Source: a virus | DNA: 40,966 bases | Virus record (IMG/VR): IMGVR_UViG_3300047557_002959 | Span: 1-40,966 of that record | Strand: one strand, 5' to 3' | In this document: positions 8,233 to 40,407 of the stretch, piece by piece | Position numbering within the stretch: the first letter of the stretch is position 1 | Layout of the letters: each line of letters begins with the position of its first letter | Translations under genes and position numbers: made by a program | The notes under the pieces: model-generated | Database searches by the model: none | Seen by the model: the letters and a program-made list of their open reading frames with translations, nothing else | Told to the model about the DNA's origin: nothing

Positions 8233-9139
8233 ACTCCTCGCATCTCACTGTTACATATTCATCAACGCCATAGTTCGTGGCGGCCTGGATGTAGTCCTCG
8301 AGCTCTTGGATGTCGTCTGGGGACATGGTCTGAACGAGACGGATGCGGGATTCTAGATCGCGCTCTCCGTTGTCACCTCGAGTAAGGTAGCTGGCCCTGT
8401 CAGCAAGCCACGCCCACTCCTCGAATTCACCCTCGGCGTCTCGGGAAGCATCTCCTGCGGCCGCTGCTTCGGCAACCGAAGCCTCGATGCTGTCCTCCTT
8501 CTCGGTGATGGCAACCACGTCGGCCATAGTAGCGAAACCCAAAGGGTAGCGGCTACCAATTGCGTCCGGTAAGTAGAATTTGTCCAGGGTAGCGGCGTCC
8601 AGCTCTCGCTGGGTGAGGCTGGAAGAGGTAACCAGCATCTTGATCTCGAGGGACTCCGGCGGCAAGGCCTCCTTAGGATCGTCAGACATTACCCTAGCAA
8701 CGTGTTTAGGGTCCTCGCACAAAGTGTGATGCTGGTAAGGCACTTTGGTGTAGGAGTTGACGCGCAACCAGTACATGACGAAGTAGAAGTCGCTGGACGT
8801 AAGGGAGTAGGCACTCACGCCAGGCTCTAGCGTAGCCGAAACGCCGTCGACCAAATGCCGCAACATGCCTTCCTTGTGGGCACGATTGAACTTGGTTTGT
8901 TCGCTGGCGCGCACAGGGCGAAGAGACAGGGACTTGAAGGAGTAAGGGAGGAATTTGCTCAGCAAAGGTAGGGCTACGTATAGCGCATCTACTTCGGAGT
9001 AAGACTTGCTCTCGGCAGGTTTTGGCGTACTGCGAGACGTAAAGGATACGTCATCCACCATTTCTACCTTAGGCTTGCGGTCAAAGGACATTGCGCCCTT
9101 GCTGACCAAGTCTGAGTTTGGTGCACCGGTATTGCTCAT
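8153..9139 (-). CDS. Putative tail-assembly chaperone / hub-assembly protein
   Basis: The frame opens further upstream with GTG at 9181, but the ATG at 9139 is chosen because it follows GAGGT five bases away. This gives 328 residues starting MSNTGAPNSDL. The middle has a conserved-looking helical segment (VMYWLRVNSYTKVPYQHHTL, with CEDPKHV after it). The C-terminus has a VRCEECGAEKRTKV zinc-knuckle-like half. Placement between the tube genes and the tape measure, and its overlap with the next frame, match tail-assembly chaperones that coat the tape measure; the T4 gp26 baseplate-hub assembly group is another option. The Asp/Glu/Ala-rich stretch near residues 205-240 may be a linker. Confidence 0.55.
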   Translation of the reverse strand: MSNTGAPNSDLVSKGAMSFDRKPKVEMVDDVSFTSRSTPKPAESKSYSEVDALYVALPLLSKFLPYSFKSLSLRPVRASEQTKFNRAHKEGMLRHLVDGVSATLEPGVSAYSLTSSDFYFVMYWLRVNSYTKVPYQHHTLCEDPKHVARVMSDDPKEALPPESLEIKMLVTSSSLTQRELDAATLDKFYLPDAIGSRYPLGFATMADVVAITEKEDSIEASVAEAAAAGDASRDAEGEFEEWAWLADRASYLTRGDNGERDLESRIRLVQTMSPDDIQELEDYIQAATNYGVDEYVTVRCEECGAEKRTKVSISALSFLPSARGGDSS

Positions 9140-16612: not shown

Positions 16613-18076
16613 TTAAGCGGGGAAAAGGGAGGACGAAGCGTCCTTCCCATGACTCTTCAAGAGCGAAGCGATGACCGAAGTCGGTCGAGAAGGACTACCT
16701 GCCTTGCCACCGAGCAGCGCGGCAGTCTCCGACTGAGCCACAGGACGGATGTGCGCCGTCGCTGCGAATTCGTCGGAATCGTCAATACTGTCGTCTTCAT
16801 CCTCTTCTGCGGATAGAACGGTATTGACTAGATCGAGTGTTGCCGCCAGTTCATTGCGGGACTCTGCCGAACGGGAGCGGACAACTTGGGCTTGTTGAAG
16901 GAGAGTTGCCGCGTAGGCCAGGCCATGCTTGTCGAACACGCGGTCAACGATCTTGGCAGGCGATTGCACACCAGCGGTGGTGAGTTCTGCTACGAGGGCA
17001 GCCTTCAGAGGATTGGTAATCCCCTTCCAGAAACCCTTGTTGATGCCGACGGTAGCGATATCAAGCGATTGCTTGACCGCCGCCTCCAGCTGCTTCTCCT
17101 TGGTAAGGAGTTCAGCGGTAGCAGACTCGACCTTGGCACTGACGACGGTCGCCAGTTGTTTGGCCACACGGATCTTGATCTTGACCGGCGAGAACGAGAA
17201 TGCCTCGACAGTTTTGACCACGCCGTGCTGTTTCAGATGGTTGGCGATTGCGGTATGGAAGGCATCCTTGCCCCACAAGTCCTTGTTGTCGCCGGCAGCC
17301 GACTGGTGCAGGTGAGCGACGATAGTGGTCTTGCAGGCAATAGCGATCGAGTCGCCGAAATCCAGGACACTGGCTTCAGCAGGCACGTCCTCAAGGTCAT
17401 CCATGAGACTGACTTCGAGTTCTTCTGCTTCGTCGCTGGCTACGGCGCCACCATCAGATTCAGGATCACCTCCTTCCGATTCGCTGCCTTCGTCGCCGGC
17501 AGCGGTTAGGTCACCAGGATTGCCTACGGGATCGGCAACAGGAGCTGCGTCGCCTTCGCCTGCGCTGTCGTCGCCAAGCAGGTCGACTTCTTCGAGGTCG
17601 TCGGACGCAATTTCGTCCGCGTCGAACTCTTCGTCATCCATACCTTCGTCGTCGGCCGCAGTGATCTTGGTGCCGCAGATGGTGCAAGAAATTTCCTTGT
17701 CCAGTGCAGCCAGAACGCTACGTTGCAGGGCGTGGGTCGTGCCGCAGGAGGCGCAATCGACGGACACGCATTCTTCGTCGACGGGAAAGTCGACCATCCC
17801 GTCATCGTCGGCCGCAGTTGCCTTTTCCTTGACATGAGTGCTTCCGCACACGATGCAATGAAGTTCCGCAGAGGCTAACTCGCGAGGCGTGGCGAACTCA
17901 GTGGTGCAATCAGCGCAGTGGACTGTCGAGAACGGCAGCTTGCTGATGGTTGCACTTGCGTTCTCCGCGGCTAGGAGCGCAGCATCGGAGGAAGAGAAGA
18001 CAAACACGCGATCCGCCGCTGCACAGGCAGCCAACGCGGCAGCTCGTACAAGAGTGGAACTGTGGGTTTTTGACAT
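16613..18076 (-). CDS. Head-region protein with two zinc ribbons and acidic linker
   Basis: A large protein (487 residues from ATG at 18076; a TTG two codons earlier, at 18082, has better SD spacing and is an alternative). The N-terminal 140 residues hold two four-cysteine zinc-ribbon-like units with CxxC pairs (CADC/CIVC near residues 55-80 and CASC/CTIC near 110-135). Next comes an acidic Ala/Asp/Glu/Ser linker to about residue 240. A C-terminal helical domain follows, with FGDSIAIACKTTIVAHLHQS and ATVGINKGFWKGITNPLKAA. It is the first gene of the structural transcript. The acidic middle and position ahead of the capsid genes suit a scaffold/core protein, but this is inference. Confidence 0.65.
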   Translation of the reverse strand: MSKTHSSTLVRAAALAACAAADRVFVFSSSDAALLAAENASATISKLPFSTVHCADCTTEFATPRELASAELHCIVCGSTHVKEKATAADDDGMVDFPVDEECVSVDCASCGTTHALQRSVLAALDKEISCTICGTKITAADDEGMDDEEFDADEIASDDLEEVDLLGDDSAGEGDAAPVADPVGNPGDLTAAGDEGSESEGGDPESDGGAVASDEAEELEVSLMDDLEDVPAEASVLDFGDSIAIACKTTIVAHLHQSAAGDNKDLWGKDAFHTAIANHLKQHGVVKTVEAFSFSPVKIKIRVAKQLATVVSAKVESATAELLTKEKQLEAAVKQSLDIATVGINKGFWKGITNPLKAALVAELTTAGVQSPAKIVDRVFDKHGLAYAATLLQQAQVVRSRSAESRNELAATLDLVNTVLSAEEDEDDSIDDSDEFAATAHIRPVAQSETAALLGGKAGSPSRPTSVIASLLKSHGKDASSSLFPA

Positions 18077-18239
18077 GTTCAAACAATCTCCTATTTTGGT
18101 TTCGGGCGCCCCGACTTAACGAAGCTACATTACGCAGGTGTCGGACCATATTAAATTACTATGTGCAGAAACCAGTGAGGAATGTAAATACGTTTTAGCA
18201 CAACGACGTGCCTTTTAGTGGATACAAGGAGGTAGTACC
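18077..18239. promoter_or_regulatory. Divergent intergenic control region
   Basis: About 160 bases between the leftward structural operon and the rightward PP-loop operon. It contains a TGTAAATA core at 18183-18190 on the plus strand, 49 bases before the PP-loop start codon, and the SD AAGGAGGT at about 18226. The structural operon has its SD AGGAG at about 18089. No convincing standard -35 box was found. The promoter call for the plus side rests on the recurrence of the TGTAAATA core elsewhere. Confidence 0.5.
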
Positions 18240-18899
18240 GTGGGACCCGACACCGAGAACAAGGCAGAGAGTAAGGCAGAAGGGGGCACCAGCCCTTACC
18301 TAGTTACAAGTAACGTACCTCTAGATCGTATGGAGCCGTGGAATCCTTACAGGGGTTACGCCGCAGGCACACTAGGCGACAAAGTGCGCCTTGCCGTAGG
18401 TAGAATTCAGAAGGTAGCCCAGCTAGGCGCAATCTACGTAGGTCATTCTGGAGGCAAGGACTCCGATGCGGTAATGAGGCTGACGGAGATGGCCATGGGC
18501 CCGTACAGCCAGCATCTTGTGGTGCACACGATGAAAGACATTGTGCCAATGGAAGACCGAGGGCACTTGGCAGACAAGATGGCTAGGAAAGATTCGCCAA
18601 ATGCCAACCGACTGTTTATGGTGCCGGCTTCGGGTATGCAGGATTTTATCCGACGCACTCAGGTAGTGGCACAAGTAGACGGTACCCGACGAGACGAGTT
18701 CAGTCGTACCGATGGCCGAAGCACTAACCTGATCGTAGATGGCGTGGAACAATCCCGGGAAGAGATGACAGACTTTACGAAAGAAGGTCTGTTCGGAATT
18801 GCCTTCTGTTTCCCTATCTACGATTGGTCCGAGGTGGAGGTGTACAAGTTCCTCGCGGTCGAAGGGGTGCAGATCAGTCCGTCGTACTACACGACCTAA
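18240..18899 (+). CDS. PP-loop ATP pyrophosphatase, PAPS-reductase-like
   Basis: A 219-residue protein. The PP-loop (SGGKDSD) at residues 70-76 binds ATP, and a C-terminal YDWSEVEVYKFLA segment is the DW-type motif of the PAPS-reductase/sulfotransferase-like branch. The enzyme should adenylate an oxygen or sulfur atom on its substrate; family members include PAPS reductases, tRNA thiolases and DNA phosphorothioation DndC-like proteins. It lacks a C-terminal cysteine motif typical of PAPS reductase and is shorter than most. The start is GTG, with an AAGGAGGT SD. It leads a three-gene operon with no gap to the next gene (TAAATG). Which substrate it acts on cannot be told. Confidence 0.75.
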   Translation: MGPDTENKAESKAEGGTSPYLVTSNVPLDRMEPWNPYRGYAAGTLGDKVRLAVGRIQKVAQLGAIYVGHSGGKDSDAVMRLTEMAMGPYSQHLVVHTMKDIVPMEDRGHLADKMARKDSPNANRLFMVPASGMQDFIRRTQVVAQVDGTRRDEFSRTDGRSTNLIVDGVEQSREEMTDFTKEGLFGIAFCFPIYDWSEVEVYKFLAVEGVQISPSYYTT

Positions 18900-19286
18900 A
18901 TGTGGCAGGTGTGGGTAGGCCAGATAAAACCTAGTTCGGGGATAGTGAGAGCCAAAAGAATAGTCCTGAGGAAGAAGGTACTTCGTTGCGAAGTAGGTCA
19001 GGAGAAAGGCTCGGGGACTTGGGTAGAGATTCCGCTGGACGATCTTATACACATCACGACGTACGGTGACGTTAAGGATCGAGGGTACTACCAGGTGAGA
19101 TACTCGGACTACACCTACGATAACCGCGTGTTGATAATTAGTCCGTACAAACCCAGGACGAAGATAATTAAAGGTGTGCCGTTCTGGGAGGTGCGAGTAG
19201 ATGAGAGAAGTGTCGAGGGACTCGCCTACAAAATGCTCGTGCTGAAATCTAATTCGCAAGTCAATAAACAGGAGCGCCGCAAATGA
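18900..19286 (+). CDS. Unknown protein in the PP-loop operon
   Basis: A 128-residue basic protein starting at the base after the PP-loop stop codon. It is a mixed alpha/beta protein with several Trp/Tyr/Val strands (KIIKGVPFWEVRVDERSVEG, then MLVLKSNSQVNKQERRK at the end) and no cysteine pairs. The tight linkage and coupled start suggest it is made with the PP-loop enzyme and perhaps works with it. The end overlaps the next start by four bases (ATGA). Family not recognised. Confidence 0.6.
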   Translation: MWQVWVGQIKPSSGIVRAKRIVLRKKVLRCEVGQEKGSGTWVEIPLDDLIHITTYGDVKDRGYYQVRYSDYTYDNRVLIISPYKPRTKIIKGVPFWEVRVDERSVEGLAYKMLVLKSNSQVNKQERRK

Positions 19287-19726
19287 GTAAGAGCACCGCA
19301 GTTGCAGATGTGAAGAAGCAGGCGAGCGTTTGGGTAACCTTTGCTTTTGAAGGTATCCATTGTTATCCGGAGGCCGCCACCCACCCGAACCTGGAAGACG
19401 TCAGCTTCCTAGGGTCGCCGCACAGGCATCAGTTCAAGGTCAAGCTGACCGTGCCGGTTACCCACTTTAACCGAGATGTGGAATTCATTCAGTTGCAGCG
19501 GGCAGTGGTAAAGGTTTTCTACGCCAGGGTGTCCGGTGGTCGGAAAATTCAAGTAGGGGAACCGCTTCAACTAGGAGCAATGTCCTGCGAAATGATGGCG
19601 GAAGATGTCTACACCGCGTTCCTGGTCGCGTTAGCCAAGTTGAAAGGCACTCGGAATGCTGTGCATCCTGCGACAGTGGAAGTTTCGGAAGATGGCGAGA
19701 ACGGAGCGACCGTAGTGTTCGGCTAG
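19283..19726 (+). CDS. Unknown phage protein with HRHxF and SCEMMAE motifs
   Basis: A 147-residue protein. It has the segment FEGIHCYPEAATHPNLEDVS, then FLGSPHRHQFKVKLTVPVTH, and later GAMSCEMMAEDV. The HxH plus late Cys/Glu pattern suggests a metal site or a small ligand site, faintly like T-fold/QueD-type enzymes. I recall similar proteins in other phages but know no function. The overlap with the previous gene indicates operon membership and coupling, and the terminator after it ends the operon. Confidence 0.65.
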   Translation: MSKSTAVADVKKQASVWVTFAFEGIHCYPEAATHPNLEDVSFLGSPHRHQFKVKLTVPVTHFNRDVEFIQLQRAVVKVFYARVSGGRKIQVGEPLQLGAMSCEMMAEDVYTAFLVALAKLKGTRNAVHPATVEVSEDGENGATVVFG

Positions 19727-19748
19727 TCTGATCGCAGAATCTGCTCAA

Positions 19749-19779
19749 GAGAAAGGGGCCTCTAATGGGCCCCTTTCTC
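19749..19779. terminator. Bidirectional hairpin between convergent operons
   Basis: Perfect 12-bp stem GAGAAAGGGGCC / GGCCCCTTTCTC (19749-19760 and 19768-19779) with a 7-base loop. It lies between the end of the plus-strand operon (19726) and the end of the minus-strand glycosyltransferase operon (19796). It should stop transcription from both sides, though neither side has a long U-run. Confidence 0.8.
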
Positions 19780-19795
19780 ACGGCTGTACGGCGCG

Positions 19796-20992
19796 TCAGC
19801 CGCGGAAGCTGTGCCTCGAATCTCTTTCGATGGTCCGAGCCATTATGCTCATAGGTTGAAAGCAATAGTGTTTAGCCCTATCCCGACAAATATCTCGCCA
19901 GTTACCGTGAGGGGTCGGCTTCGGCGACCTATAGGTGTTCGCTTCCAGGAGAACTTGTATCTTGCTAACTACCTGGTCCTCGTCATCGAACAAGAACGCC
20001 CTCTCCCAACCAACCAGTTCAGGGTGAGACAACGAGTTGCGTACCAAAGGGTAGCACTCGTACATCATAGCCTCCACTATGCAGTACCCGAAATTCTCTT
20101 CGATACTGGTCGAGAGCATAACCGCACTCTCTTCCAAAAGTGCGTGGTACTCGGCCTTGCTCAACCCTGCCTTGATAGTGATGATCCCGTCTGACTCCAT
20201 CTCGCGGGCAAGTTTAAGGAGCCACGTCTTGTTGGACGTGAAATGGGGGCGAGAAGTGCACACCACAATCTCGATCGTAGGGTCTTCCCGTTTGAGAATG
20301 TATGCCAAGTCGAGACTGAGGTTAGGCCTCTTCTCCCAGTCGAACCTGTTAGGTAGCACCACTTGCCGCTTCTTAGCAGCAGGCTGGCCCTCTTGAAGAA
20401 AATCGTTCCTGGCGTAGTCACTTTTGAAGAGGGGATTGCCGGACACCACCAGCTTCGAGGCTAACGCCTCTTGATCTTTCTGAGGTAGGTTCAACGGCAG
20501 CAGACGCCTCTCGATGAAGGCTCGCTTGTGGTAATCAGAACCGACAAAGACGGTGTCGCAAGCCGCAAGCCAGCCGACCTCCGTGAACCTCTGGTAAGGT
20601 GCTGCAACAGCAAAAGCATCCTCTATCGTGTAGGACGCCGCGTGAAGGAATCCGTAGATCAGGATTGGCACCTTGTTGAGCTGAGACAAGAGGCGAAGGC
20701 TCTCGATGCCCCAGAACTCTATATCGGAGACGAAGAAAATGTCCCCAGGTCGGATCAGTTTTTCGCGGAACATCTTCGCAACCTTCTGCATCTGACTATT
20801 CTTGTAGTAGATGGTGCTGTTGATGTCCAGGAACGTCCCTACCTCAACGTGGTCGGTAAGAGTCTCGCCTGAGATGTTGTAGGCCTCGATACCGTCGATG
20901 TGATCCTCAAAAGCTTTCGGCAAGTGGTTGTACCAGGACTCCGTGTATCTCTCCGGCAAAGGCTCGATAGGGAGGATGTGAAGTTTCGTCAT
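19796..20992 (-). CDS. Glycosyltransferase, GT-B/GT4-like
   Basis: A 398-residue protein starting MTKLHILPIEPLPERYTESW. The ATG at 20992 overlaps the previous stop (ATGA); a longer open frame upstream is not used. The C-terminal half has GT-B features: KLVVSGNPLF, then RQVVLPNRFDWEKRPNLSLD (donor-loop opening), IVVCTSRPHF, and SIEENFGYCIVEAMMYECYP, the E-x7-E-type motif with family GT4 appearance. It should transfer a sugar from a nucleotide donor. Candidate acceptors are DNA bases, a small thiol-like molecule or surface glycans. Its neighbour is a PIG-L deacetylase, the same pairing seen for MshA/MshB and BshA/BshB and in GPI synthesis. That makes a GlcNAc transfer followed by deacetylation attractive, as inference. 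Confidence 0.8.
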   Translation of the reverse strand: MTKLHILPIEPLPERYTESWYNHLPKAFEDHIDGIEAYNISGETLTDHVEVGTFLDINSTIYYKNSQMQKVAKMFREKLIRPGDIFFVSDIEFWGIESLRLLSQLNKVPILIYGFLHAASYTIEDAFAVAAPYQRFTEVGWLAACDTVFVGSDYHKRAFIERRLLPLNLPQKDQEALASKLVVSGNPLFKSDYARNDFLQEGQPAAKKRQVVLPNRFDWEKRPNLSLDLAYILKREDPTIEIVVCTSRPHFTSNKTWLLKLAREMESDGIITIKAGLSKAEYHALLEESAVMLSTSIEENFGYCIVEAMMYECYPLVRNSLSHPELVGWERAFLFDDEDQVVSKIQVLLEANTYRSPKPTPHGNWRDICRDRAKHYCFQPMSIMARTIERDSRHSFRG

Positions 20993-21501
20993 GTTGGCTC
21001 CGGTGTAGGAAAAGGTGAAGGTAGTTCGATGTCGTTTTGGAATTCTTCCGGGTGTGTTCTCTGAAACGAGAGTCGTGTAGCACAAAGCACCGTAGGTCCT
21101 CGGCTAGTCTCTTGACTGAATTTGATTTGGTCTAGCGGCTCTAGACCCCAGAGTGAAGGTTTGCCTTCTACGTGAATCATGAACCCTAGAGAAGGGTACT
21201 GGCGTCGAAGTTCATACCAGGATTCACTGTAGTCGGTTACCTCGAGAGTAACCAGTAACCGAGATTTCATATCCAGAAACGGACCGATATACTCACCGAA
21301 AAAGTGAGGAGTGATCTGATTGGTGTGGTCTGATATGTAGAAATGAGAAGCGCCGTGCTGGTTAGCGTAGATGTGCAGCCATCGCCCGAGCGCACAAGCA
21401 CTCTCATGGTGATGGAGAAACGCCTGCAGCAGCTCTGCGTAGCTCATGAAAATCGTCTTGATACCTCGCAAGCGTCCTTCTACTTCTATTCCTATCTTCA
21501 T
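20989..21501 (-). CDS. Unknown protein between glycosyltransferase and PIG-L genes
   Basis: A 170-residue protein starting MKIGIEVEGRLRGIKTIFMS. It is alpha/beta, with HIYANQHGASHFYISDH, SRLLVTLEVTDYSESW and PLDQIKFSQETSRG as notable stretches. Several His residues lie in the N-terminal half but there is no cysteine cluster. The middle position in a coupled three-gene set (12 bases after the PIG-L gene and overlapping the glycosyltransferase start) suggests a partner in the same pathway. I have no firm family assignment. SD GGGG is about ten bases upstream. Confidence 0.6.
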   Translation of the reverse strand: MKIGIEVEGRLRGIKTIFMSYAELLQAFLHHHESACALGRWLHIYANQHGASHFYISDHTNQITPHFFGEYIGPFLDMKSRLLVTLEVTDYSESWYELRRQYPSLGFMIHVEGKPSLWGLEPLDQIKFSQETSRGPTVLCATRLSFQRTHPEEFQNDIELPSPFPTPEPT

Positions 21502-21512
21502 TTACATCCCCT

Positions 21513-22400
21513 TTAAACACTCACTGACCAAGAGGAACCGTCTTCTGCCCTGGCCGTAACCTTCAAGGACTCGACCTGCCCTAAGGGCAAGCTGAACAGC
21601 AGTTCAGGATGAATCTCTTCCACTATGTATCTGAGGTTGGGTATAGTGACGGCCCTCCCGTACTCGGATAACTTCACGGAAGATTGCCTCAGCACCGCGT
21701 CCAGGTTAGCCTCTAGCTCTGAGAGCAAGCCCCAGTCTTTCAGAGAAACTTCGGCGTCAATGTAGATGCCGGAAGTGATCTTCCGATCCGTATCTGGGTA
21801 GCTACTTAGAACCACGTGAACGTAGCGAGTGAGTCTCGCCGCTGACCTAGTATTGTCCCGACTGTAGCCCTCAAACAGAAAGTATTTCTCATTCTGAAAC
21901 AATGAGAACTGGGAAGGGTAATTCTGGAGCAAGGCTTCTTTCTTCTGGCTCGCAATGTGCGAGGGCAAAGGGACAACAGACGGGGAAGACATGTCTATCG
22001 AGTAGAACTCCAGCTGTACCTTCGAGGCACCTCCGGCTGTTAGCCTGTGTGCGACCTTCCGAGCCGTCCAATTTACCATCTTGTGATGATGGTGCACATC
22101 GGTAATGTCAGGGACCAACCAGATAGTATTCGCCGTATGGTACTGGCGCATAATCCGGTGTATGGCGTTGTCCAGAGACATCATCGACAACATCGCATCC
22201 GGAGCGTGGGAGAATGTCAGGAGGAATCCGTAGAATTGACTTGCGCGTATAGCCTCTTGCTGCCGCTCTTCCGTAAGATCGAAGAAGTAGTGGACTCCGC
22301 TAACGTGGCCGGTCAGGAGTTTGGTGTAGCACCCTATCATTTCGTCGTCGACGTGGGGCGCCAAGATTTGGTACTCCAGTAGGTCGTTGTCCGCAGACAT
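21513..22400 (-). CDS. PIG-L/LmbE-like de-N-acetylase
   Basis: A 295-residue protein. The PIG-L signature PHVDDE occurs at residues 15-20 (H16, D18, D19), with a second metal-binding His cluster in DVHHHHK near residues 101-107. These match the zinc ligands of MshB, BshB and PIG-L, which remove acetyl from GlcNAc linked to an acceptor. The catalytic Asp after the first His is present. About 120 extra residues at the C-terminus (from SSYPDTDRKITSGIYIDAEV) form a separate alpha/beta section not typical of the family. SD AAGGAG precedes the ATG. Together with the glycosyltransferase it suggests a two-step sugar modification. Confidence 0.85.
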   Translation of the reverse strand: MSADNDLLEYQILAPHVDDEMIGCYTKLLTGHVSGVHYFFDLTEERQQEAIRASQFYGFLLTFSHAPDAMLSMMSLDNAIHRIMRQYHTANTIWLVPDITDVHHHHKMVNWTARKVAHRLTAGGASKVQLEFYSIDMSSPSVVPLPSHIASQKKEALLQNYPSQFSLFQNEKYFLFEGYSRDNTRSAARLTRYVHVVLSSYPDTDRKITSGIYIDAEVSLKDWGLLSELEANLDAVLRQSSVKLSEYGRAVTIPNLRYIVEEIHPELLFSLPLGQVESLKVTARAEDGSSWSVSV

Positions 22401-22652
22401 CTAGATCTCCTTGGTTTTGTAGTGGCCGTCTTTGACCAGCATCTTGGATGTGGTGCCACCAGGATTGAAAACATCAAACGCGGTGTACCCAGGTTTCTTG
22501 GCCGGATACATCTGAGTGGCCTTGAAACGGCAGACCTCAGAAGGTCGTACCGTGTAGTTGTAGTCCGCGCTGATCATATAGACCTCGCCCTCGACCGGCT
22601 CAGACTTCAAGGTCGTTACCAAAAGAGGGGCGAGGACTTTGACCAGTATCAC
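22401..22652 (-). CDS. Unknown small protein before the PIG-L gene
   Basis: An 83-residue protein starting MILVKVLAPLLVTTLKSEPV. It is beta-rich with a basic second half (CRFKATQMYPAKKPGYTAFD) and ends immediately before the SD region of the PIG-L gene. No transmembrane span, no paired cysteines. It belongs to the leftward operon that begins at 23010. I recognise no family. Confidence 0.6.
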   Translation of the reverse strand: MILVKVLAPLLVTTLKSEPVEGEVYMISADYNYTVRPSEVCRFKATQMYPAKKPGYTAFDVFNPGGTTSKMLVKDGHYKTKEI

Positions 22653-22653
22653 G

Positions 22654-23010
22654 TCAAGACTCTTTCATCTGGCCTTCGAGACCTGTCGCCACTCGCCGAG
22701 CAGTACGGGCCTCCAGGCTTCGGAGGGCGTCCCACATATGGGTGAGGGCTACCTCATTCTCCTCGCAAGGAAACGCGTCGTTCAGAACCTTGGTTCGGTC
22801 GATAAGGATCGCCAGCAAGGCTTCGTTCGTTACGCCGTTGAGACCGAAGGTCTTGACCGGCCCTTCCTGGAAATCAATCGAGATCGTTTTATGGGCGGTT
22901 CGTGTCAAGAACCGAACCTCATAGTGATGCCCATTAGGCTCCGCCGAATGCGGCCCAGGTACAGAGAAAACTTCGAGACCATTACGGTCAACATAAACGG
23001 CATGAGGCAT
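22654..23010 (-). CDS. Small phage protein, Acb2/Tad1-hairpin-like (candidate cyclic-nucleotide sponge)
   Basis: A 118-residue protein. The N-terminal beta part (MPHAVYVDRNGLEVFSVPGP, then HSAEPNGHHYEVRFL, then TISIDFQEGPVKTFGLNGVT) is followed by a helical hairpin (NEALLAILIDRTKVLNDAFP, then EENEVALTHMWDALRSLEAR and a tail with RRVATGLEG). I recall a large phage family with this same end, R-x-x-RG-x-EG, that I associate with the Acb2/Tad1 hairpin domain. In that family proteins sequester cyclic nucleotides to block CBASS-type defence. That role is hypothesis here. It is the first gene of the leftward operon, with a TAAGGAG SD and a promoter-like core 48 bases upstream. Confidence 0.55.
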   Translation of the reverse strand: MPHAVYVDRNGLEVFSVPGPHSAEPNGHHYEVRFLTRTAHKTISIDFQEGPVKTFGLNGVTNEALLAILIDRTKVLNDAFPCEENEVALTHMWDALRSLEARTARRVATGLEGQMKES

Positions 23011-23380: not shown

Positions 23381-23445
23381 TGTTGTGAAACTCTATTAAG
23401 CAATTACCTGTTGTGAAACTCTATTAAGCAATTACCTGTTGTGAA
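23381..23445 (+). repeat. 28-bp tandem repeat with partial third copy (iteron-like)
   Basis: Unit 1 is 23381-23408 and unit 2 is 23409-23436, identical, both starting TGTTGTGAAACTC and ending CAATTACC. A third copy starts (TGTTGTGAA) at 23437. The outer 13-bp arms GATTCACAACAGG (23367-23379) and CCTGTTGTGAATC (23435-23447) are an inverted pair. This looks like protein-binding sites or iterons. Confidence 0.85.
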
Positions 23446-23450
23446 TCGCT

Positions 23451-23470
23451 ATAAAGGCCGCGGCCTTTAT
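23451..23470. repeat. 20-bp perfect palindrome
   Basis: ATAAAGGCCGCGGCCTTTAT equals its own reverse complement. It lies between the 28-bp repeats and the plus-strand TGTAAATA core. It could be an operator for a dimeric regulator, or a short hairpin. Confidence 0.8.
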
Positions 23471-39432: not shown

Positions 39433-40407
39433 ATGAAATTCACAAATCCATACGGACCGAATACAACGGTGCTTCTCCCAGGTAGTTGCAACGCCAAATG
39501 CGACTTCTGCTTCTGGGACCGAAAGAGCGCAAAGATCAAACCTCCCGAAGACTACCTCGACAAGGTGTTCTCTGTCCTGAGCAACTTGCCGTCCCAGTGT
39601 CGGACGCTTTCTATCAGCGGAGGTGAGCCTACGTTGAGCCCCTGGCTGCCGAAGTTTCTGGCCCGCCTGAGTGTGTGGCGCCGGAGCCACCACTTGGATC
39701 GTGTAGTCCTGACTACGCACGGGGGCAACCTGCTTTCAAAGATCGGAAGCGTCGCCTCAGTGGTCGACCACATCAACATCAGCCGACACGCAATCACGGA
39801 CGAGGACAACTGGACGATCTTCAAGACCGACAAGATACCGGACAGTATGAATCTGAGCCTCCTTATTAGCAGGGTGCACGACTTAGGCACTTGCGACGTC
39901 ACTTTGAATTGCGTGGTGCCGCGGGACGTTACCTCCAAGTTTTGCAAAGACTACATCAAGTTTGCCAAGGACGTGGGAGCAGATGCGGTTAGCTTTCGTA
40001 AGGTCGCGAGCGACGTGACGTCCACGAAAGCTGAGCGAAAGTTCGCCGAGAAATACGGAGTAGGGTCGGAGACGAAGTGCCCTGTTTGCCGCGGCATGGA
40101 GCAAATGGTCAAAGGGTTTCCTGTACGCTGGAAAGGCTCCGTGGAAGAACCCTCCCTTGAAACGAAAGGTATCTACGAGGTGGTTATCCATCCTGACGGT
40201 CTTGCGTATTCGGATTGGGGACGCACGACCTTGATACCCGCCCTGAACAAAAAAGCTCCTCCGAAAAGAAAGACTACAGCCGTTCGAGTCCATGGTGGTT
40301 GCCAGGGCCGGAGTAGTGGTAGAGGCGGCTGCGGTGGCAATGGCGGAGGATGCGGGGGTAGAGGAGGCTCCCCTGGTTGCGGATCCCGAGGGATAGGAGG
40401 CTGCTAA
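39433..40407 (+). CDS. Radical SAM protein with Gly/Cys-rich tail
   Basis: A 324-residue protein. The radical SAM cluster motif CNAKCDFC (C19, C23, C26; CxxxCxxC) is followed by ISGGEPT at residues 61-67, the SAM-binding GGE-type motif. A second Cys pair (CPVC) near residue 216 may bind an auxiliary cluster. Residues 287-324 form a tail of Gly, Arg, Ser and Cys, with Cys spaced 7-10 residues apart (C290, C300, C307, C316, C324). Such a tail is unusual for a stand-alone enzyme and resembles a microcin B17-type Gly-rich peptide. The enzyme could act on a nucleotide, peptide or its own tail. SD AAGGAATT. The gene end overlaps the next start (TAATG). Confidence 0.8.
   Translation: MKFTNPYGPNTTVLLPGSCNAKCDFCFWDRKSAKIKPPEDYLDKVFSVLSNLPSQCRTLSISGGEPTLSPWLPKFLARLSVWRRSHHLDRVVLTTHGGNLLSKIGSVASVVDHINISRHAITDEDNWTIFKTDKIPDSMNLSLLISRVHDLGTCDVTLNCVVPRDVTSKFCKDYIKFAKDVGADAVSFRKVASDVTSTKAERKFAEKYGVGSETKCPVCRGMEQMVKGFPVRWKGSVEEPSLETKGIYEVVIHPDGLAYSDWGRTTLIPALNKKAPPKRKTTAVRVHGGCQGRSSGRGGCGGNGGGCGGRGGSPGCGSRGIGGC

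Follow-up and report, generated by a model that had tools for sequence, protein, structure and literature searches.

A candidate sugar-tailoring cassette of the phage 7-deazaguanine DNA-modification pathway

The window analysed here is the whole stretch of 40,966 bases of the virus record IMGVR_UViG_3300047557_002959, which was assigned to a myovirus because of the sheath, tube, baseplate and capsid genes on its minus strand between 1 and 16.6 kb. Two convergent operons located between 18240 and 23010 encode a GT-B glycosyltransferase (GT), a PIG-L family de-N-acetylase, a PP-loop enzyme, a protein of 170 amino acids (aa) and a protein characterized by the motifs HRHxF and SCEMMAE (HRHxF in the following). 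With a probability of about three in four, this cassette provides the sugar-tailoring steps in a phage pathway of 7-deazaguanine DNA modification, and judged from the gene content of related loci the link to that pathway is strong. The amino sugar placed on the modified guanine would probably protect the viral DNA against bacterial defences. The five cassette genes are:

18240–18899, plus strand: PP-loop ATPase of the PAPS-reductase/CysD/FAD-synthase branch (PF01507, E=5e-5; SGGKDS intact)
19283–19726, plus strand: QueD-like T-fold protein HRHxF/SCEMMAE (phrog_17812, E=9e-28; AlphaFold2 and Foldseek)
19796–20992, minus strand: GT-B glycosyltransferase of GT4 type with start codon ATG at 20992 (PF00534, E=4.9e-11)
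20989–21501, minus strand: predicted 170-aa QueE paralog (G170) without iron–sulfur (Fe-S) cysteines (AlphaFold2 model; hhalign against QueE)
21513–22400, minus strand: PIG-L family de-N-acetylase with an additional C-terminal region (PF02585, E=2.3e-5; HVDDE and HHHH motif)

Homologs of these genes were sought by tblastn in cultured phages and by alignment-based searches in IMG/VR. In Xanthomonas phage X1, the GT of which shares 56% identity with that of the window (tblastn), the operon has the order FolE, PP-loop, PIG-L, 170-aa protein, GT, DpdA, HRHxF and QueE, and its DpdA is annotated as queuine tRNA-ribosyltransferase. The IMG/VR loci L003 and L004 carry HRHxF, PP-loop, PIG-L, the 170-aa protein, GT, DpdA, QueE, FolE and QueD co-oriented within approximately 10 kb. 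GT and HRHxF were also found beside QueE in Sinorhizobium phage Phosso, Acidovorax phage ACP17 and Pseudomonas phage Paride, together with FolE in Phosso and ACP17 and with QueD in ACP17; PIG-L was not found in the examined stretches of these three phages. Because the same proteins recur in co-oriented operons of X1 and of many IMG/VR contig groups, the association of the cassette genes is not due to chance. An earlier reading of the window from its sequence alone (the original prediction) had named the genes between 18240 and 23010, all of which were recovered by open reading frame (ORF), Pfam and PHROG searches, and had regarded the two convergent operons as one system, which the single co-oriented operons of X1 and the IMG/VR relatives bear out; the genes do co-occur in other phages.

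For the census, profiles were built from the alignment searches, all loci were scanned and overlapping loci were merged into contig groups. PIG-L or the 170-aa gene was present in 28 contig groups including the window, with GT in 28, PIG-L in 27, PP-loop in 20 and the 170-aa gene in 16 of them, so that the pairing of GT and PIG-L postulated originally is real and conserved. GT, PIG-L and the 170-aa gene served as search bait, and the independent evidence lies in the remaining genes. Whole-record searches of the 27 other records detected FolE in 24 and QueE in 23. DpdA of the family represented by our profile A10 was found in 13 of the 27, plus one weak match, and DpdA of the CAjan type in five more (phmmer; in L123 the DSGAF motif only), giving a total of about 18. 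The DpdA profile matched archaeosine and queuine tRNA-guanine transglycosylases (TGT) in the PDB (E=4e-9). The TGT model PF01702 did not exceed its cut-off in any of 16 phage records, among them G002 with an A10-matching DpdA, and since that DpdA was missed the model is too insensitive to show the absence of DpdA. QueC (PF06508) scored above cut-off in one record of the 27. Outside the 28 groups, 98 further groups contained HRHxF and GT without PIG-L, mostly together with DpdA and FolE or QueE; QueC was not seen in these groups except for the CAjan control, as searched with a one-sequence model in the fetched flanks only.

This gene content resembles that of phages known to modify their DNA with 7-deazaguanines such as 9g, CAjan and nt-1, for which the set FolE, QueD, QueE, QueC and DpdA has been described (Hutinet et al. 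2019, PMC6884629). The relatives likewise possess FolE, QueD, QueE and the TGT-superfamily protein DpdA, located in the same setting among replication genes. They differ from the known systems in that QueC is almost always absent and in that GT, PIG-L, PP-loop and two paralogs of Que proteins are added; the window carries the added part only. The original prediction had missed the deazaguanine context, which is decisive, and the identity of two proteins, the HRHxF protein, which it had placed in the system, and the 170-residue protein, which it had positioned correctly between GT and PIG-L and called unknown. For phi38:1 (NC_021796), considered as a possible 7-deazaguanine phage, the annotation of the 50 kb examined lists none of these genes.

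The family of the HRHxF protein was settled by fold search. Its AlphaFold2 model, built from 45 sequences, reached a predicted local distance difference test score (pLDDT) of 92.5, and the best PDB match by Foldseek was E. coli QueD (4ntk; E=1.5e-4, probability 1.00). Comparison with QueD by hhalign gave E=1.2e-4 at a probability of 55, and hmmsearch against PDB sequences yielded only chance-level matches to bacterioferritin. His26, His47 and His49 are invariant in the 45 homologs and correspond by eye to the zinc ligands of E. coli QueD, and the C-terminal Glu motif of QueD is kept (likewise aligned by eye). HRHxF thus resembles QueD and 6-pyruvoyl tetrahydropterin synthase in the T-fold, the three histidines and the Glu motif, and differs from them at the position of the catalytic cysteine before the HxH motif, which is an invariant Leu43. 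Because the catalytic cysteine is replaced and L003, L004 and ACP17 each possess a separate gene for a true QueD, HRHxF is, on the basis of its predicted structure, a QueD paralog with a new job and not a functional QueD.

For the 170-aa protein the fold search was less informative. The AlphaFold2 model (pLDDT 91.3) gave nothing below E=0.02 in the PDB and a single unnamed viral match in BFVD (E=6e-8); it was profiles of longer relatives that revealed the link to QueE. Long relatives (L120–L134) aligned to QueE by hhalign with a probability of 97.3 and E=1.7e-11, and the whole family, including the short members and the window, with E=3.5e-7; five unrelated controls ranged from E=0.02 to 0.8. 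The family shares with QueE (7-carboxy-7-deazaguanine synthase) the N-terminus EGEG..G..T.F, and its long members also match the C-terminal region of QueE. It differs from QueE in lacking the Fe-S cysteine motif, which is absent in the 16 aligned members, and in being fused to the PP-loop enzyme in two relatives. Because the Fe-S cysteines are absent, the 170-aa protein is not a radical S-adenosylmethionine (SAM) enzyme but, as judged from its sequence profile, a paralog of QueE.

Gene fusions connect these paralogs to the remaining enzymes. HRHxF occurs in 25 of the 28 groups, as a standalone gene in 11 and as a C-terminal fusion to PIG-L in 14 but never in both forms, and was not found in three; PP-loop and QueE-like protein form a single ORF in L121 and L130. 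Fusions of this kind, together with arrangements that exclude one another, point to partners working in a common step or on one and the same molecule. In L120, a radical SAM gene (8257–9018; CxxxCxxC) is located between the PIG-L/QueD-like fusion and PP-loop. A vestigial QueD-like domain was also considered for the C-terminus of the window's PIG-L and was dropped, as hhalign gave E=0.15, not better than the controls.

GT was assigned to the GT4 type by its PF00534 match and by profile comparison; the GT4 group includes MshA and BshA. PIG-L of the window scored 25.3 bits against PF02585, slightly below the curated cut-off of 28.2 bits, and as a single-sequence query found no matches in viral contigs, with 12 matches in the alignment-based search. 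Its motifs HxDDE and HxxH are intact, and His16, Asp18, Asp19, His103 and His106 are invariant in 22 aligned sequences. Judged from its pairing with a GT4 enzyme, PIG-L would act on a GlcNAc-type (N-acetylglucosamine) substrate. The PP-loop enzyme belongs to the group of PAPS reductase, CysD and FAD synthase as judged from both its SGGxDS motif (SGGKDS, residues 70–75) and its family match; its profile (A8) matches FAD synthase (6e-9) and CysD (3e-8), which are both adenylyl-transferring enzymes, and the window protein scores PF01507 and not QueC. A second PP-loop homolog (E=3e-13) is encoded in the same operon of L012 (14722–15381) and possibly represents a separate ligase step.

For the sugar–base bond, the order of the steps and the product, we infer the following scheme from the gene content of the relatives and the chemistry of the families. 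The starting base would be 7-carboxy-7-deazaguanine (CDG), made in this phage by the same steps as the relatives' genes indicate, and because QueC is normally absent it would not be taken to preQ0. The QueD-like zinc protein HRHxF would act on the 7-substituent, GT would attach a sugar that is N-acetylated (probably GlcNAc), and PIG-L would strip the acetyl group and expose the amine, as family chemistry and the PIG-L/QueD-like fusion suggest. The PP-loop enzyme would form one ATP-dependent unit with the QueE-like protein that lacks Fe-S, the two being fused in two relatives; this unit would activate and cap or ligate, by adenylation, either the carboxylate of the base or a group on the freed amine, which is the least certain step. 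DNA carrying an amino-sugar 7-deazaguanine would result, and this base would block restriction enzymes along with other defences that target DNA. Glycosylation is probably independent of PIG-L and PP-loop, both acting in later tailoring, because GT and HRHxF alone form the core in about 98 groups. Even odds are given to the more specific proposal that the phage DNA contains a glucosamine-type 7-deazaguanine, a purine-type base with a sugar that comes from the deazaguanine route, made without QueC and completed by a PP-loop enzyme on a rewired, Fe-S-free QueE scaffold and by a rewired QueD scaffold, in which case folds of the queuosine pathway would have undergone duplication and taken on new tailoring roles.

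Several observations weigh against placing the cassette in a 7-deazaguanine pathway of this phage. Profile searches detected none of FolE, QueD, QueE and DpdA in the 41-kb window, so that completeness of the pathway is assumed here, and the layout is unlike that of the relatives in having PP-loop and HRHxF on the strand opposite GT, the 170-aa gene and PIG-L. In BcepSauron, the isolate whose capsid is nearest, a DpdA of the A10 family is absent. In the group G011 (L024/L025), and in no other record with PIG-L and GT, a real QueC is present; its DpdA match is weak, and the arrangement is possibly transitional. Moreover, if the QueD paralog were the proposed CDG decarboxylase DpdL, no obvious oxygen or nitrogen handle would be left for the sugar. 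The lineage, in turn, speaks for the pathway: the capsid of the window is nearest to those of the jumbo phages BcepSauron, BcepSaruman and Motura; Motura encodes QueD-QueC-TGT-QueE-FolE, and contig G027, another capsid relative, carries DpdA, QueC, FolE and QueE, with GT absent. On gene content, the deazaguanine pathway therefore occurs in the capsid lineage of the window, and we infer it for this phage. Motura (NC_049849) further contains an asparagine-synthetase-like gene at 18037–19317 (L202 6038–7318) between QueC and the transglycosylase of its classic deazaguanine operon, possibly another tailoring ligase. A radical SAM protein is encoded in the window at 39433–40407 on the plus strand (PF04055, E=8e-8; CNAKCDFC; C-terminal tail rich in Gly and Cys) and was ruled out as the QueE of this phage, as it did not match the QueE profile.

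Among the alternative explanations, one retains the deazaguanine pathway and changes the chemistry: HRHxF would be DpdL, and GT a C-glycosyltransferase at carbon 7, possibly with loss of the carboxylate, followed by tailoring by PIG-L and PP-loop. This would agree with the retained QueD zinc site and C-terminal Glu motif, with the loss of the catalytic cysteine, and with the minimal set of HRHxF and GT in about 98 groups in which QueC was not detected, so that GT works there without an amide or nitrile supplied by QueC. The C7 position of 7-deazaguanine is nucleophilic, and if HRHxF is DpdL, which Cui and colleagues reportedly proposed in 2023 to be a CDG decarboxylase, a C-linked sugar at carbon 7 would be the natural interpretation. 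However, GT4 enzymes usually form O- or N-glycosides, and DpdL is only reportedly a QueD paralog; we consider the explanation rather unlikely. Alternatively, the modified base could enter host or phage tRNA as a queuosine-like hypermodification instead of DNA. The transglycosylase does belong to the TGT superfamily, and mannosyl- and galactosyl-queuosine are real glycosylated tRNA nucleosides (PMC8654956). The responsible glycosyltransferases QTMAN and QTGAL are similar in glycosylating a 7-deazaguanine nucleoside but are animal tRNA enzymes which target the cyclopentenediol of queuosine. DpdA of several relatives, by contrast, is near that of CAjan (E down to 3e-30), a phage included in Hutinet et al. 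2019 (PMC6884629), and a tRNA target is therefore deemed improbable.

Two further explanations dispense with the deazaguanine pathway. GT and PIG-L could alter a host surface glycan such as lipopolysaccharide (LPS) or capsule and thereby exclude other phages, with the deazaguanine neighbours being coincidental. Phage GTs and PIG-L proteins are found with sugar genes as well, e.g. WcaG and WecE in phage DLP3, for the glycosyltransferase of which LPS modification was suggested by the authors (PMC7326821). However, most PIG-L groups and about 98 others combine this GT with FolE, QueE, QueD or DpdA, a QueD-fold domain is joined to PIG-L by gene fusion in 14 groups, and no gene for nucleoside diphosphate-sugar synthesis was seen conserved in the operons; a role in LPS or capsule was rejected on the deazaguanine context and the PIG-L/QueD-like fusion as highly improbable. 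The diffusible amino-sugar thiol or nucleotide that would counter host defence, mycothiol-like in nature, appears scarcely credible. GT4 and PIG-L are indeed the pairing of MshA/MshB and BshA/BshB, with the same two families coupled and the logic of GlcNAc transfer followed by deacetylation probably in common. Yet the acceptor here would be a deazaguanine base instead of inositol or malate, and neither a cysteine ligase nor inositol- or malate-linked genes were seen to recur, the deazaguanine enzymes recurring instead; as the supporting partner genes were not seen in the relative operons examined, a mycothiol-like product was rejected. Out of the three products offered originally, the sugar-amine modified base fits best and the mycothiol-like thiol is left unsupported.

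The remaining features of the region are:

18900–19286, plus strand: 128-aa protein between PP-loop and the QueD-like gene, function not assigned (no convincing Pfam or PHROG match)
19749–19779, strand not applicable: perfect 12-bp inverted repeat GAGAAAGGGGCC / GGCCCCTTTCTC (sequence)
22401–22652, minus strand: 83-aa ORF abutting the PIG-L start in the same operon, function not assigned (weak PF21461 match, E=0.004, under cut-off)
22654–23010, minus strand: 118-aa protein encoded at the head of the minus operon, function not assigned (phrog_2428, E=2e-28)

The PP-loop gene starts with GTG at 18240 and is preceded by AAGGAGG. Alignment to homologs placed the start of GT at ATG 20992, correcting TTG 21085; this ATG overlaps the stop codon of the 170-aa gene by 4 nt (ATGA), and because of this overlap the two genes are probably translationally coupled. 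The converging operons are separated by the hairpin at 19749–19779, probably a bidirectional terminator. The 128-aa protein had no homolog in the relatives' loci examined and was seen in the window only; a homolog of the 118-aa protein is located near the operon in L003 (16885–17241, E=1e-26). In the intergenic region at approximately 23385–23460, upstream of divergent operons, tandem copies of CCTGTTGTGAAACTCTATTAAGCAATTA were observed, and every copy has a promoter-like match in minus-strand orientation. Extra cassette genes were observed in L002 (7992–8783) and L003 (6638–8681), including a possible GT-A-like protein common to both, and L003 additionally carries a DUF2264 protein (PF10022, E=2e-65).

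Sugars on modified phage DNA bases are familiar as shielding from the glucosylation of hydroxymethylcytosine in T4 and from TET/GT hypermodification, which differ from the cassette described here in that the base is a pyrimidine instead of 7-deazaguanine; a hydroxymethylase or TET gene did not recur. To our knowledge, all 7-deazaguanine derivatives known from DNA carry small groups (cyano, amido, formamidino, aminomethyl, carboxy and similar). A glycosylated 7-deazaguanine in DNA was not found in the literature searched, the coverage of which was incomplete, so that novelty is provisional. The analysis places two orphan families, one as a QueE paralog free of Fe-S and the other as a paralog of QueD, and the core genes are present in more than 100 phage contigs and in the cultured phages X1, ACP17, Phosso and the Paride/PA5oct group, so that the proposal is testable now. 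If true, sugar-bearing 7-deazaguanine would add a further class to the hypermodifications of DNA, and the cassette suggests a novel shield against restriction and other defences that target DNA.

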